From Lysobacter luteus (GTDB taxonomy: Bacteria > Pseudomonadota > Gammaproteobacteria > Xanthomonadales > Xanthomonadaceae): a stretch of 64,000 nucleotides of DNA. A model generated the notes under the pieces. That model searched no databases. It was given only the letters and a program-made list of their open reading frames with translations, and was not told the DNA's origin. The stretch is taken from the NCBI RefSeq assembly GCF_907164845.1, contig NZ_OU015430.1:1850001-1914000 (forward strand), in the 5' to 3' direction. Positions 1 through 5,226 of this stretch are shown in pieces. Made by a program: the position numbers and the translations under genes. The stretch's first letter is position 1; each line of letters starts with the position of its first letter.

Positions 1-1083
1 GCCGCCGAAGATCTCGTCGCTGCCCTCCCCCGACAGCACCATCTTGACGCCCATCGCCTTGATCCGCCGCGCGAGCAGGTACATCGGCGTGGATGCACGG
101 ATGGTGGTGACGTCGAACGTCTCGACGTGCCGGATGACCTCCGGCAGCGCGTCCAGGCCCTCCTCAAGCGTGTAGGTGAAGCCGTGGTGGACCGTGCCGA
201 GTGCCTCGGCCGCCACTTCGGCGGCGGCGAGGTCGGGCGATCCCGGCAGGCCGATCGCGAACGAGTGCAGCCGCGGCCACCAGGCCTCCGCACGGTCGTC
301 CTCCTCGATCCGCCGGCGGGCGAAGCGGGCCGCGCAGGCAGCGACCAGCGACGAGTCCAGCCCGCCCGACAGCAGCACGCCGTAAGGCACGTCGCTCATC
401 ATCTGGCGATGCACCGCGCGCTCGAACGCCTCGCGCAGCTCAACCGGCGAGACTGCCACGCCTCGAGTCGCATCGTGGTCCCGCCAGGGCCGCTGGTAGT
501 AACGCTGCAGCTGGCCGGTGGCGCTGTCGTACCAGTGGCCGGGCGGGAATTGGGCGACGTCGTTGCAGACCCCAACCAATGCCTTCATCTCCGAGGCCAC
601 CCACATCCGGCCCTGGTCGTCGTGACCCCAATACAGCGGGCACACGCCGATCGGGTCTCGCGCTACCAGATGGCGCTCCCGCTCGCGGTCCCAAAGGGCG
701 AAGGCGAAGATGCCGTTCAACCGCCCCAGCCAGCCGCCGATGTCGTCGTCCTGCGCGTACAGGGCATTGATGACCTCGCAGTCCGAGCCGGTCTGGAAGT
801 CATGGGGTGCGGACAACCCGTCCTGCAGTTCGCGGTGGTTGTAGATCTCGCCATTGACGGCGAGCACATGCCTGCCATCGCCAGACACGATCGGCTGCGC
901 ACCGCCGGCCGGATCGACGATCGCCAGCCGTTCGTGGACAAGGATGGCGCCCGGGTCGGCGTGGACGCCGCTCCAATCGGGGCCGCGGTGGCGCTGTCGC
1001 CGCGACAGCGCAAGCGCGTCGCGGCGAAGTCGGGGCAGGTCGTCGCCAGGAGTGAGGCCGAAGATGCCGAGGATCGAACACAT
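1..1083 (-). CDS. asnB: Asparagine synthase (glutamine-hydrolysing), N-terminal part
   Basis: Makes asparagine from aspartate, glutamine and ATP in the cytoplasm. Only the first 361 codons are present; the gene runs off the left edge. The start was chosen because the protein then begins MCSILGIF, placing Cys2 as the nucleophile of a class II (Ntn) glutaminase, and an AAAGGA ribosome site lies 8 nt upstream. The glutaminase half shows RLAIVDPAGG and VNGEIYNH. The synthetase half starts with the PP-loop LLSGGLDSS near residue 238, and the visible part ends at SGEGSDEIFGG. It is the last gene of the map-glnD-dapD-dapE side of the window but has its own promoter and attenuator (1143-1319). Family identity is certain. 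Confidence 0.95.
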   Translation of the reverse strand, partial: MCSILGIFGLTPGDDLPRLRRDALALSRRQRHRGPDWSGVHADPGAILVHERLAIVDPAGGAQPIVSGDGRHVLAVNGEIYNHRELQDGLSAPHDFQTGSDCEVINALYAQDDDIGGWLGRLNGIFAFALWDRERERHLVARDPIGVCPLYWGHDDQGRMWVASEMKALVGVCNDVAQFPPGHWYDSATGQLQRYYQRPWRDHDATRGVAVSPVELREAFERAVHRQMMSDVPYGVLLSGGLDSSLVAACAARFARRRIEEDDRAEAWWPRLHSFAIGLPGSPDLAAAEVAAEALGTVHHGFTYTLEEGLDALPEVIRHVETFDVTTIRASTPMYLLARRIKAMGVKMVLSGEGSDEIFGG

Positions 1084-1142
1084 ATGCAGTTTCCTTTGCG
1101 ATGGTTGGAGGTCGTGGGCGACCGGCTGTTTCGTGCGGCAAC

Positions 1143-1171
1143 AAAAAAGCCCGCACTTAGCAGTGCAGGCC
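1143..1171 (-). terminator. Attenuator terminator in the asnB leader
   Basis: Read on the minus strand: a 9-bp stem (1170-1162 with 1157-1149, one U-G pair), a GCTA loop, then six T (1148-1143). It sits between the leader peptide and asnB, 60 nt before the asnB start, so it can only act as a conditional terminator of asnB. Confidence 0.88.
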
Positions 1172-1216
1172 TGGGAGAACGATGAGCGTGGTGCTACGCG
1201 CTAATCGCCGGCCTGC
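1165..1216 (-). promoter_or_regulatory. Predicted antiterminator pairing of the asnB attenuator
   Basis: The minus-strand sequence GCAGGCC at 1216-1210, inside leader codons 16-18, is exactly complementary to GGCCTGC at 1171-1165, the 5' arm of the terminator. Pairing of the two would block the terminator. A ribosome stopped at the leader stop codon would cover 1216-1210; a ribosome stalled on the Asn codons would leave it free. Seen: complementarity and positions. Inferred: the switch. Confidence 0.75.
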
Positions 1217-1263
1217 GGGAGGCTGGCGTTGTTATTGCCGGGGTTGTGGATGGACAGCGGCAT
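1201..1263 (-). CDS. Asn-rich leader peptide of asnB
   Basis: A 20-codon open frame, MPLSIHNPGNNNASLPQAGD, with four Asn codons of which three are consecutive (codons 7, 10, 11, 12), ending in TAG just before the attenuator hairpin. It lies about 20 nt downstream of a plausible promoter start and 30 nt upstream of the terminator stem. The Shine-Dalgarno sequence is weak. By analogy with the his, thr and ilv leader peptides it would sense charged tRNA-Asn: stalling at Asn codons allows antiterminator formation and asnB transcription. The encoded amino acid matches the product of the downstream enzyme, which is the strongest support. I am not aware of an asnB attenuator of this kind being described. 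Confidence 0.85.
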   Translation of the reverse strand: MPLSIHNPGNNNASLPQAGD

Positions 1264-1290
1264 GGTGTCGGGCCGATCGATGGATGCGCA

Positions 1291-1319
1291 GGGATACGCC
1301 CCCCTTTGAACCCGGTCAA
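1291..1319 (-). promoter_or_regulatory. Sigma-70 promoter of the asnB leader
   Basis: Minus strand: TTGACC (1319-1314), exactly 17 nt, TATCCC (1296-1291). Transcription would start near 1284, about 20 nt before the leader-peptide ATG. The -35 is strong and the -10 is moderate. Confidence 0.6.
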
Positions 1320-1386
1320 CGCCGGTCGGCGGGGGAAGCGGCCAACCGGGCCGTATGATCCGGAACGGGTCCGCCAGGGGAAGACG

Positions 1387-3714
1387 ATGCCGACACGTTC
1401 AATCAATCCCGGCCTGGGGGCAAGTGGCAGCCCCGTGGTCGCCGCCGTCCTGGTGCTGGCGTTCGTACTCGCGGCATGGCTGGGCGTCGCTCAGAACCGC
1501 GCGCCGTCGCCGGTCGGCGCGGATGCCGCCGCGGATGCGTTCTCGTCCGCCCGCGCCATGGGGGTGCTCGAGCGCGTCCTTGGCGACCAGCGCCCCCACC
1601 CCACCGCCAGCCCGGCCAATGCCGCCGTGCGCGATGCCATCGTCGCCGAGTTGCGGGCGATCGGGCTGGAGCCACAAGTGCAGCGGCGCTTCGCTTGCGG
1701 CGGGTTCACCTGCGCGACGGTCGACAACATCGTGGCCCGCGTACCGGGCGTCTCGGCCGACGACGCGGTGCTGTTATCGGCGCATTACGATTCGGTCGCC
1801 GCCGGGCCGGGCGCTTCCGACGATGGCGCTGGCGTGGCCGCGATCATCGAAACCGCCCGTGCGCTGCTGGCGGGGCCTGCGCCAGCGCGCGACGTCTGGC
1901 TGCTGCTGAACGATGGCGAGGAGCTTGGGCTCATCGGCGCGGAGGCATTCGCGCGGGAACCGGAATTCGCCCGGATTGCGCGGGTGGTCAACCTGGAGGC
2001 CCGCGGCACCACCGGCGCGAGCCTGCTGATCGAGACGCAGGCCGGCAACGCGGCGCTGGCGCGCCTGCTGCGCGCATCGCTGTCGGCGCCGGCCGGTTCG
2101 TCGCTGGAGTACGAGATCTACCGCACCCTGCCCAACGACACCGACTTCACCGTGTACAAGCGCGACGGGCTCGCGGGTGCAAATTTCGCGTGGGCGCGGG
2201 CCCCGGCGCGATACCACACCCCGCTCGACGACATCGCCCACCTCGACCGCGGCTCGCTGCAGCACCACGGCGAGCATGCGCTGTCACTGTCGCGCGCGTT
2301 CTCCGCCGCCGAGCCACCGGCGCCCGACGATGCGGACGCGGTGTTCTTCAGCCTTCCCGGCAGCCTGATGGCGGGTTGGCCCGCATCGTGGAACCCGGTG
2401 CTTCTGGCGATCGCGGTGCTCGGCTGGCTGGTCCTGGGCGCGCGGCTGGTCCGCGCCGGCGCGGTCCGCGCGGCGGCATTGCCCGTGGCCGCGGTGCTGG
2501 CGGTCGTCGGCATCGCGGTACTCGGTGTCGCGGGCGTGCTGGGCCACATGCTGCTGCAGGCGCTCGGCACGGTGCCGGCGACCTGGACCGCGCAGGGCGG
2601 CGCCATGGTTGCCGGCATGATGCTGCTCGCCATCGGGATCCTGGTGCCGCTGGGCTGGCTTGTGCAGCGCACATGGGGCGTGGCGGCGTTGGCGTGGGGG
2701 GCGCTCAGCCCGCTGGTGCTGGTGGCTGCCGCGGCGGTGCTGTGGATGCCGGGCGGCGCGCACGTGGGGCTGGTGCCCGTCCTGGCCGGCGTGATCGCGA
2801 GCCACCTTGCGCCGCGGCGACCGCTGTTGTGGGCCGGCTTGGCCGCGCTGCCCGCGGCGCTGCTGTGGATGCCTTATGCCGAAGGCGCCTACGACGCCAT
2901 CGGCCATGAAGGGCTGGTCGCCGTGCCTGCGGTCGTTGGGATCATGTTGTTGCCGCTGTTGCCGGCAGTGCTCGCCCTGCCGCGTGGCGCCGCGCTCGCC
3001 AGCGCCGCGGGGTGGCTCGGTGCGGGCGTGTGCGTGCTGCTCGCCGTGTCGCAGCCGGCATTTGACGCCGACGTGCCGCGGCCGGCCAACCTCGTGCTGG
3101 TGGCGGGACCGGACGGTTCACGGCTGTTCGCGCAATCGGGCGCACTCTTGCCGCGCGCGTTCCTGGACGCTGCGGGCTTCGCCCGCGAACGCGAGCCGAT
3201 GAACCCCTGGGGAAGCCGCGGCGTGCCGGGCCCCCGGGGGCCTGCGCTGGCCATGCCCGCGGTCGTGATCGAGCAGCGCGACGTGGTCGGCGACCGCCAG
3301 CGCCTGCAGGTGCGCTTGCGGTCAGCGCGCGGGGCGACGACCGGCGGACTGATGCTGCCGGGCACGGTCGACCTGACATCCCTGCGGGTCAACGGGCAAC
3401 CGCTGGCGCAGTCGCGTTGGCACGCGCGCGACGAACCCTGGCGCGGCATTTCGGTCGTGGGCCTCGGCGCGGACGGCGCGGTGTTCACGTTCGACCTTCC
3501 GCTGGACGCGGAGCATTTCCATGCGTTCGATCGCTCGCACGGGCTGCCGACGGGACTTGAAGTCGTGGTTGCCGCGCGCGACGAGGTCGGCGTACCCATC
3601 GGCGGCGGCGACGCGTCGATCGCCTGGACCACGGTGCCGCTGCCGGCAGTCGCTCCCCAGGACCCGCCCGAGGACAATCAGGCCGGCAGCAACCGCTCGA
3701 TAAGCGCGAGGTAG
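1387..3714 (+). CDS. M28-family metallopeptidase with C-terminal membrane region
   Basis: 775-residue zinc aminopeptidase of the M28 family. The start at 1387 follows a GGGGAAG ribosome site and gives an N-terminal membrane segment (about residues 16-36), so the peptidase domain should face the periplasm. Zinc and catalytic motifs are visible: SAHYDS (about 131-136), SDDGAG (about 146) and [10 protein letters not shown] (about 175). Several hydrophobic segments follow (about 330-570), then a soluble C-terminal domain, as in Xanthomonadaceae M28 proteins with a multi-pass tail. It is divergent from the asnB leader and overlaps the 3' end of dapE tail-to-tail by 37 nt. The substrate is unknown. 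Catalytic residues look intact. Confidence 0.88.
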
Positions 3715-4817
3715 AGGTCCGGCAAGGCTTCCAGGTCGGCGACGCGCACGTGTTCGTCGACCTGGTGGATGCTCGCGTTGACCGGCCCGACTTCGATGCA
3801 CTGCGCACCCAACGGCGCGATAAAGCGCGCGTCGGACGTGCCGCCACCGGTGCTCTCGGCCGGCGGCGCCCCGGCGAATGCTGCCAGCACGTCCCGCGCG
3901 GCTTCCCGCAACACACCTTCGGGGGTGTGGAATGGCTCGCCGCTGCGGTGCCAGTGCAGGTCGAACGCGAGGTCGTGCCGTGTCAGCACCGCCTCGCACT
4001 CGGCCTCCAGCCGGGCGGCGTCCCAGTGCGGGTTGTAGCGCAGGTTGAACAGCACCTGCAGCTCGCCGGGAATCACGTTGCTGGCGCCGGTGCCGGCGGT
4101 GATGTTGCTGATCTGCAGGCTGGTCGGCGGGAAGGTTTCGAACCCATCGTCCCAGCGCCGCGCCGCCAGCTCGGCAAGCGCCGGCAGCGCAAGGTGGATC
4201 GGGTTGCGTGCCTGGTCCGGATAGGCGACGTGGCCCTGCACCCCGTGCACGGTCAACGTCCCGGTCAGGCTGCCGCGGCGGCCGACCCGCAACAGGTCAC
4301 CGAGCTTCGCGGTCGAGGACGGTTCGCCGGTGATGCACCAGTCGATGCGCTCGCCGCGTTGGCGGAACACGTCGGCCACCCGCCGCACACCGTCGATTGC
4401 ATCGCCCTCCTCGTCGGAGGTCAGCAGCAGCGCGAGTCGGCCGGCATGCCCGGGGCGGGCGGCGACGAAGCGCTCGGCAGCCACCACGAACGCGGCCACG
4501 CTGCCCTTCATGTCGGCGGCGCCGCGGCCGTACAGCACGCCGTCGCGGATCTCCGGCACGAACGGATCGCTCGACCATGCCTCGCGCGGACCCGTCGGCA
4601 CCACGTCGGTGTGGCCGAGCAGGACCAGCGTCGGCGCATCGTCGACACGGCTGCCGTGCGTGGCCCAGAGGTTTTCGACCGCACCAAAGCGCAGGTGCTC
4701 GCAGTGGAAGCCGGCGGCACCGAGGCGCCCGGCGATGAGCGCCTGGCAGCCGGCGTCGTCGGGGGTCACCGACGGGCGGGCGATGAGGTCGCGGGTGAGA
4801 TCGAGAACGTCGGACAT
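3678..4817 (-). CDS. dapE: Succinyl-diaminopimelate desuccinylase
   Basis: Hydrolyses N-succinyl-LL-2,6-diaminopimelate to LL-DAP in the lysine/peptidoglycan pathway. 379 residues, close to the E. coli enzyme (375). The M20 metallopeptidase signature is present: [37 protein letters not shown] and a C-terminal metal-ligand His in [11 protein letters not shown]. It is the last gene of the map-glnD-dapD-yffB-dapE run, 49 nt after the ArsC-like gene, so both succinyl-branch DAP enzymes are in one unit. Confidence 0.96.
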
Positions 4818-4866
4818 GCGGGGAGATTACCTGTCACCGGCCGGAGCGACGGCCGGACGCCCGGGT

Positions 4867-5226
4867 TCAACCAACCCCGAAGCGCTTCTTGAACGCGTTG
4901 TCGCTGAAGCCCTGGGTCACCGCACCATCGTCGGTGACGACCACCGGCCGGCGGGCCAGTTGCGGGTACTCGCGCAGCAGCAGCTTCCACTCCGCGTCGC
5001 TGCCTGGCGCCTTGCGGTGATCCGGCAATTGCCGCCAGGTGGTCGAGGACTTGTTGGTCATGGCGTCCCAGCCGCCCAGGGCCTCCTTCCATCCGACCAG
5101 CTCTTCGGGCGTGCGGGGCTCGTCCCGGTAATCCACGAAGCGGTGCTCGACACCGAACCGGTCCAGCCACTTGCGGGCCTTGCGGCAGGTGTCGCAGTTC
5201 TTCAATCCGTAGAGCGTGGTGGCCAT
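4867..5226 (-). CDS. ArsC/Spx-family reductase-like protein (YffB type)
   Basis: 119-residue thioredoxin-fold protein of the ArsC/Spx family. The start at 5226 (MATTLYGLKNCDTCRKA) is 1 nt after the dapD stop; a longer upstream frame would run into dapD. It has a CxxC at residues 11-14 and the family pattern of WKLLLREYPQLARRPVV and FSDNAFKKRF. The position between dapD and dapE is conserved in gammaproteobacteria (E. coli yffB-dapE). The biochemical role is unclear; the E. coli homologue is an ArsC-fold, probably glutathione-dependent protein. Confidence 0.88.
   Translation of the reverse strand: MATTLYGLKNCDTCRKARKWLDRFGVEHRFVDYRDEPRTPEELVGWKEALGGWDAMTNKSSTTWRQLPDHRKAPGSDAEWKLLLREYPQLARRPVVVTDDGAVTQGFSDNAFKKRFGVG

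Follow-up and report, generated by a model that had tools for sequence, protein, structure and literature searches.

Ribosome-mediated attenuators are known for the his, trp, thr, ilv, leu, and phe operons of Proteobacteria, and in Gram-positive bacteria Asn genes are controlled by T-box leaders, which sense tRNA directly. The leader of asnB described here shares with the former the presence of codons for the product amino acid, alternative helices, an intrinsic terminator, and a biosynthetic gene downstream; it differs from them in its amino acid, which is asparagine, in the gene that follows, asnB, and in the probably leaderless start of most of its relatives. It would also differ from trp in that its untranslated RNA, in the sequence studied here, is predicted to read through. 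With the T-box leaders of Gram-positive asn genes it would share a response to the charging of tRNA-Asn ahead of Asn genes, whereas no T-box match was found in it. The amino acid operon attenuators of Proteobacteria have been modelled (PMC1183508), and in trpL of Sinorhizobium meliloti the 5' end of the leader RNA coincides with the ATG of the leader frame (PMC7298713). Such a leaderless leader frame is also probable in most relatives of the locus described here, the difference being that the amino acid in S. meliloti is Trp. No attenuator of asnB, or one responding to Asn, was found in the literature searched, which mostly does not extend to subscription papers, so that absence from print is unproven; in a term search of PMC2965389 no mention of asparagine turned up ('asparagin' does not occur, and 'asn' occurs once, in the name of an author).

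The locus lies at the beginning of the window, i.e., the whole 64,000-nucleotide stretch of Lysobacter luteus DNA that was analysed. Judging from comparison with related loci, it very probably represents a transcription attenuator that depends on the ribosome and adjusts the expression of asnB to the supply of charged tRNA-Asn. Its mechanism would be the one known from classical ribosome attenuators, the amino acid, asparagine, being new.

Layout of the asnB leader in the window

The elements of the leader and their coordinates are as follows:

1314..1319, minus strand: possible -35 element TTGACC, from sequence, unconfirmed; TTGA also occurs in L001
1291..1296, minus strand: possible -10 element TATCCC, separated from the leader ATG by a 27-nt gap; not conserved in L001
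1201..1263, minus strand: leader frame MPLSIHNPGNNNASLPQAGD of 20 codons, ATG at 1263, stop codon TAG at 1203-1201, from sequence
1228..1236, minus strand: control codons AAT AAC AAC, Asn 10-12, from sequence
1220..1228, minus strand: arm 1, partner 1214-1206 (the 1:2 hairpin), from covariation in 27 sequences
1210..1216, minus strand: arm 2, GCAGGCC, partner 1171-1165, from sequence and covariation
1204..1209, minus strand: inner antiterminator strand GGCGAT, predicted partner 1183-1178, from the fold predicted with a stalled ribosome
1178..1183, minus strand: inner antiterminator strand ATCGTT, from fold prediction only
1165..1171, minus strand: arm 3, GGCCTGC, common to antiterminator and terminator, from sequence and covariation
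1143..1172, minus strand: intrinsic terminator with stem 1172-1162/1157-1147, loop GCTA at 1161-1158, and six T at 1148-1143, from a terminator scan and covariation
1091..1096, minus strand: likely ribosome binding site of asnB, AAGGAA, from sequence
1..1083, minus strand: asnB, asparagine synthase B, start at 1083, first 361 codons, continuing beyond the window; NCBIfam NF006949 (537.1 bits, cut-off 499)

In the proposed mechanism RNA polymerase would transcribe a short leader frame containing a run of Asn codons. When Asn-tRNA is scarce, the ribosome would halt at this run and mask arm 1, leaving arm 2 free; arms 2 and 3 would then pair as the antiterminator, the terminator would be blocked, and asnB would be transcribed. 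When Asn-tRNA is ample, a ribosome at the stop codon would mask arm 2, arm 3 would pair with arm 4, and transcription would end near 1143. Three points of this scheme are inferred: translation of the leader, the occurrence of termination, and Asn as the signal.

The initial annotation had described a 20-codon leader frame bearing Asn codons, a GCAGGCC block (1216-1210) exactly complementary to the 5' arm of the terminator, and a terminator stem with a GCTA loop and six T, and each of these was found where it had been placed on the minus strand. The Asn codons of the frame occupy positions 7, 10, 11, and 12. The terminator was recovered by a scan of positions 900-1600 that returned two terminator-like sites, as against 0.4 expected from shuffles, the second being located on the plus strand at 1206-1228. 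Taken alone, the window frame is moderately improbable: when the region was shuffled 3000 times, an ATG frame with at least four Asn codons arose in 9 cases. The fold of the whole leader region is unremarkable and weak as evidence (z of -1.73; 11 of 200 shuffles fold equally well), so that the claims on structure rest on comparison. The case for the leader rests on its relatives.

Occurrence and transcription start among relatives

The first set of loci, from a scan of named genomes, comprised the best 80 of 586 asnB-like loci, 79 of them with upstream DNA (L029 begins at the gene), and in 77 of these 79 asnB is preceded by a short frame carrying three or more Asn codons. The two loci without it are L039 and L071. 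In the order sample asnB was detected at E<=1e-100 in 126 of 200 genomes and in the class sample at E<=1e-80 in 4 of 274; upstream sequences were taken from one class locus and, apart from the window, from 99 of the remaining 125 loci in the order. A leader with at least three Asn codons is present at 54 of the 56 order-sample loci of families f1, f172, and f182, and at none of the 44 loci representing families f174, f175, f177, f179, and f180 together with the class representative. The exceptions within f1 and f182, L125 (G040) and L093 (G449), carry an asnB gene that is only 63-64% identical and lack the leader; here asnB was likely replaced by a foreign gene arriving without one. The families with the leader appear to include Rhodanobacteraceae, since Dyella loci carry the same leader. 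It is also worth mentioning that L039, L042, and L071, labelled Holophagales, Nannocystis, and Prescottella, respectively, have asnB genes 75-81% identical to that of the window, L042 with an Asn-rich leader; they are possibly mislabelled or contaminated contigs.

With the window included, the leader set consists of 132 loci, in which 124 segments and 123 peptides are distinct; some loci of the order sample repeat loci of the first set. A rule-based caller combining an Asn frame, a leaderless promoter, and a terminator recognized 113 of the 132 leader loci, none of 48 loci lacking the leader, and none of 2640 shuffled upstream sequences. The window itself falls outside this group because it does not have a promoter of the leaderless type. 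The Asn frame alone was called at 129 of the 132 leader loci, 3 of the 48 others, and 18 of the 2640 shuffles, and the Asn frame with a terminator at 116, 1, and 0, respectively. Given the relatives, a chance origin of this arrangement is untenable.

Within the genus of the window, asnB was found at E<=1e-150 in nine of ten genomes, G568 being the one without it at this threshold, and an Asn run with a terminator in eight of the nine. In one of the eight (L194) a clear ATG start is absent. In the ninth (L191, genome G003) no Asn leader is seen upstream of an asnB gene 82% identical to that of the window, and the leader has apparently been lost. A covariance model of the element, built on the window's type, matched its own genome at a single place, before asnB, and the family genomes at 56 places in 55 of 119 genomes at E<=0.01; G003 is among the misses, and misses in other types are expected from the way the model was built. 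In the 14 of the 55 model-positive genomes for which the position of asnB is known, the best match lies at most 170 nt upstream of the gene. One further weak match, G016:C33, is located away from asnB.

Of the elements in the initial annotation, the promoter is the weakest. The sequence TTGACC-17-TATCCC does occur at the place given, but as a promoter it is atypical of the relatives: a promoter scan under its default rule, which is stricter, found none in the window, and in an alignment of six promoter sequences TTGA is common to the window and its nearest relative, L001, and TATCCC is not conserved. In 128 of the 132 loci the consensus TTG-N17/18-NNNNNT is present, with its end 5-8 nt upstream of the leader start, the exceptions being L001, L103, L118, and the window. 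At other ATGs in the same upstream sequences this consensus was found in 3 of 730 cases, and in shuffles 2.2 times on average and seven at most. In an unbiased scan over 0-69 nt the best promoter site fell at 5-8 nt in 126 of the 132 loci and at 27 nt in a single one, fitting the window's TATCCC. A Shine–Dalgarno-like motif precedes 22 of the 132 leader starts, compared with 130 of the 132 asnB starts, and none was found upstream of the window's leader. A promoter ending 5-8 nt before the AUG, together with the scarcity of such motifs, indicates that transcription probably starts at the leader AUG itself in the 128 loci and that the leader, across the clade, probably undergoes leaderless translation; the window departs from this pattern in its promoter.

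The lack of the near-universal promoter in the window and in L001, along with the loss of the leader in G003 and the missing asnB of G568 within the same genus, is what would be expected if the attenuator were real in the clade and had decayed in the lineage of the window, asnB being read there from another promoter. This explanation, which overlaps the preferred one and limits the attenuator to the relatives, is nevertheless unlikely: the window retains an intact frame, Asn run, set of arms, and terminator, and covariance model R1 scores the window highest of the searched genomes, at 104.7 bits, though with the window in its training set.

Leader peptide, RNA helices, and spacing

Asn accounts for 841 of 4407 leader codons (19%), compared with 385 of 27,720 (1.4%) in the start of asnB; in 29 long frames of the window it accounts for 294 of 13,739. 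The dipeptide NN is present in 129 of the 132 leaders (all but L019, L028, and L075), and 112 have at least five Asn codons, the minimum being three. Of the 841 Asn codons of the leaders, 405 are AAT, the rarer codon, versus 53 of 385 in the asnB start and 33 of 294 in the window frames. The leaders range in length from 20 to 46 codons and vary freely in their N-terminal sequence, which argues against a conserved function of the peptide; the Asn run, the arms, and the position of the stop codon are kept. The stop codon is TAG in 110 leaders, TAA in 13, and TGA in nine, and in the window part of the TAG is predicted to lie inside the antiterminator helix. In leaders of the Xanthomonas type, e.g., that of L074, GCGCACG-AATAAT-CGTGCGC forms a perfect 7-bp hairpin within the leader frame, with two Asn codons in its loop.

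The initial annotation had proposed, as a check, an alignment of relatives for Asn runs, a terminator, and a conserved, covarying pair of the GCAGGCC/GGCCTGC type, and all of these hold. The helices were aligned in two clades only, 27 sequences of the window's type (A1) and 38 of the Xanthomonas type (A2). The 1:2 hairpin (1228-1220/1214-1206 in the window), absent from the initial annotation, has 94.0% of its cells paired in A1, and six sequences exchange G-C for A-U at columns 10/30; its covariation score was reached by 8 of 500 shuffles, its number of cells changed on both sides by 13, of pairs changed on both sides by 67, and of pair types by 485, counts which, here and below, are not probabilities because the sequences are related. 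The presence of this hairpin gives the leader of the window's clade the classical three-helix layout.

For the A1 antiterminator (2:3) 89.9% of cells are paired, and none of 500 shuffles reaches either this percentage or the score. Columns 23/78 provide a clean exchange, A-T in 10 and G-C in 17 of the 27 sequences, opposite which arm 4 of the terminator has G in 26 of 27; the change thus preserves the antiterminator pair, and the terminator tolerates the resulting T-G wobble. Two pairs of this helix are doubly changed, as in 200 of the 500 shuffles, all 500 of which also reach its pair types, and pairing fails at columns 21/80 in five sequences, 22/79 in four, 26/75 in one, and 27/74 in nine. 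The A1 terminator (3:4) is 94.9% paired with six doubly changed pairs, reached by one of 500 shuffles. In A2 the antiterminator with two inner helices is 89.9% paired, 6 of its 15 pairs being doubly changed (reached by two of 500 shuffles), and the terminator is 99.4% paired with three doubly changed pairs (19 of 500). Slid versions of the helices have fewer paired cells in every case. Compensatory changes in the alignments therefore support the antiterminator and the terminator in two clades and the 1:2 hairpin in one. The 7-bp pairing of arms 2 and 3 named in the initial annotation stands, while its extent was underestimated, as the antiterminator is predicted to be larger and, in the window, to include 1209-1204/1183-1178 and a third short helix. 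The intervening stretch aligns poorly within the window's clade.

Across all 132 loci, duplexes between the leader and arm 3 average -16.5 kcal/mol for a locus's own pair, -13.6 for mismatched pairs, and -10.3 for shuffled leaders; the own duplex is better than the mean mismatch in 115 loci, and in only 96 does it outperform 29 or more of the 30 shuffles. There are 43 different arm 2/arm 3 helices among the 132 loci; the best unbroken one is only 5 bp long in 22, and it falls within the leader frame, before the stop codon, in 124 and not in the other eight. The stretch from the last Asn codon to the stop folds slightly better than shuffled sequence (-9.9 versus -8.3 kcal/mol), a gain too small to establish the 1:2 hairpin for all clades. 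A T run with at least five T in eight positions follows the hairpin in 119 loci; of the 13 that fail, seven constitute one consistent subgroup (L013, L015, L023, L025, L031, L038, and L056). This subgroup retains several Asn codons and a strong hairpin but lacks a U tract; in its place a second hairpin, whose loop is GGTTT, overlaps the 3' arm.

Arm 2 lies 10-16 nt beyond the last Asn codon in 94 of the 132 loci, in 55 of them at exactly 11 nt, a spacing that fits a stalled ribosome; together with state folding, in which the ribosome was assumed to cover 10 nt downstream of its A-site codon, it is consistent with the two-state geometry proposed initially. More than half of arm 3 is predicted to pair with the leader in 104 of the 132 loci when the ribosome is stalled at the last Asn codon, in 87 without a ribosome, and in none with the ribosome at the stop codon, where the terminator is favoured in 130. 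In equilibrium folds of the complete stem with a stalled ribosome, the terminator still exceeds 0.5 in 123 of the 132 loci (0.96 in the window); as it wins even then, the switch must be kinetic and operate during transcription. For the window RNA without translation the antiterminator is predicted, at 0.67, which makes read-through in the absence of translation possible. The comparison of sequences documents the parts of the switch and their conservation, the compensatory changes in the aligned clades, and the spacing.

A small protein acting in its own right, with the terminator as the end of its gene and asnB controlled separately, would account for the stretch NNRARP... after the Asn run being well conserved in 30 leaders of the Xanthomonas type (15 distinct sequences), and a leader peptide acting in trans is reported for Sinorhizobium, peTrpL (PMC7298713). 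It is very unlikely as an explanation of the locus, as the variable length and N-terminus of the frame are set against a constant Asn run, arms, and stop position, and the 5' arm of the terminator changes along with the leader, which would be needless for a plain gene end.

The signal and the meaning of the proposed asnB attenuator

For an attenuator responding to charged tRNA-Asn, the route by which Asn-tRNA is made is of importance. Asparaginyl-tRNA synthetase scores above the cut-off in 115 of the 119 family genomes, and GatB was found in none of the 119 with a profile that was positive in 12 of 14 control genomes; Asn-tRNA should thus depend on free Asn. Were Asn-tRNA made by transamidation, the signal would no longer be coupled to free Asn; this idea was rejected on the same counts. 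A gene for asnA was not found in the window's own genome, which contains, besides a single close asnB, a distant relative that is 46% and 38% identical in two stretches. A distant AsnB-like segment, G000:C1:1775262-1776401, lies within an open frame of 1478 aa.

Direct sensing by the RNA, of asparagine as in a riboswitch or of tRNA-Asn as in a T-box, without a ribosome, would suit a switch made of RNA upstream of a gene for amino acid synthesis and recalls the T-boxes on Asn genes of Gram-positive bacteria, yet it is extremely improbable, given that Rfam has no match to the element (in positions 1-5000 of the window or, at gathering score, in 18 relatives, with one chance-level match elsewhere in the window), that a reading frame with Asn codons lies at ribosome distance, and that the sequence varies outside the helices and the Asn run.

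The proposed ribosome-dependent attenuator can be placed in a broader evolutionary scheme, to which we would give an even chance of being correct. An Asn-specific attenuator, of a specificity undescribed in the literature searched, would have a single origin, in an ancestor shared by Xanthomonadaceae, Rhodanobacteraceae, and family f172; leaderless initiation on the first base of the RNA would be part of the switch, and one subgroup would have swapped the U tract for a second, overlapping hairpin, shutting the gene off by another route. The 124 distinct segments among the 132 loci constitute a large natural set, apparently leaderless in the initiation of its leaders, for testing how leaderless translation is coupled to attenuation. 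Through the attenuator asparagine would join the amino acids sensed via ribosome attenuation, and the control of the AsnB-type synthetase in a large group of Lysobacterales would be explained.
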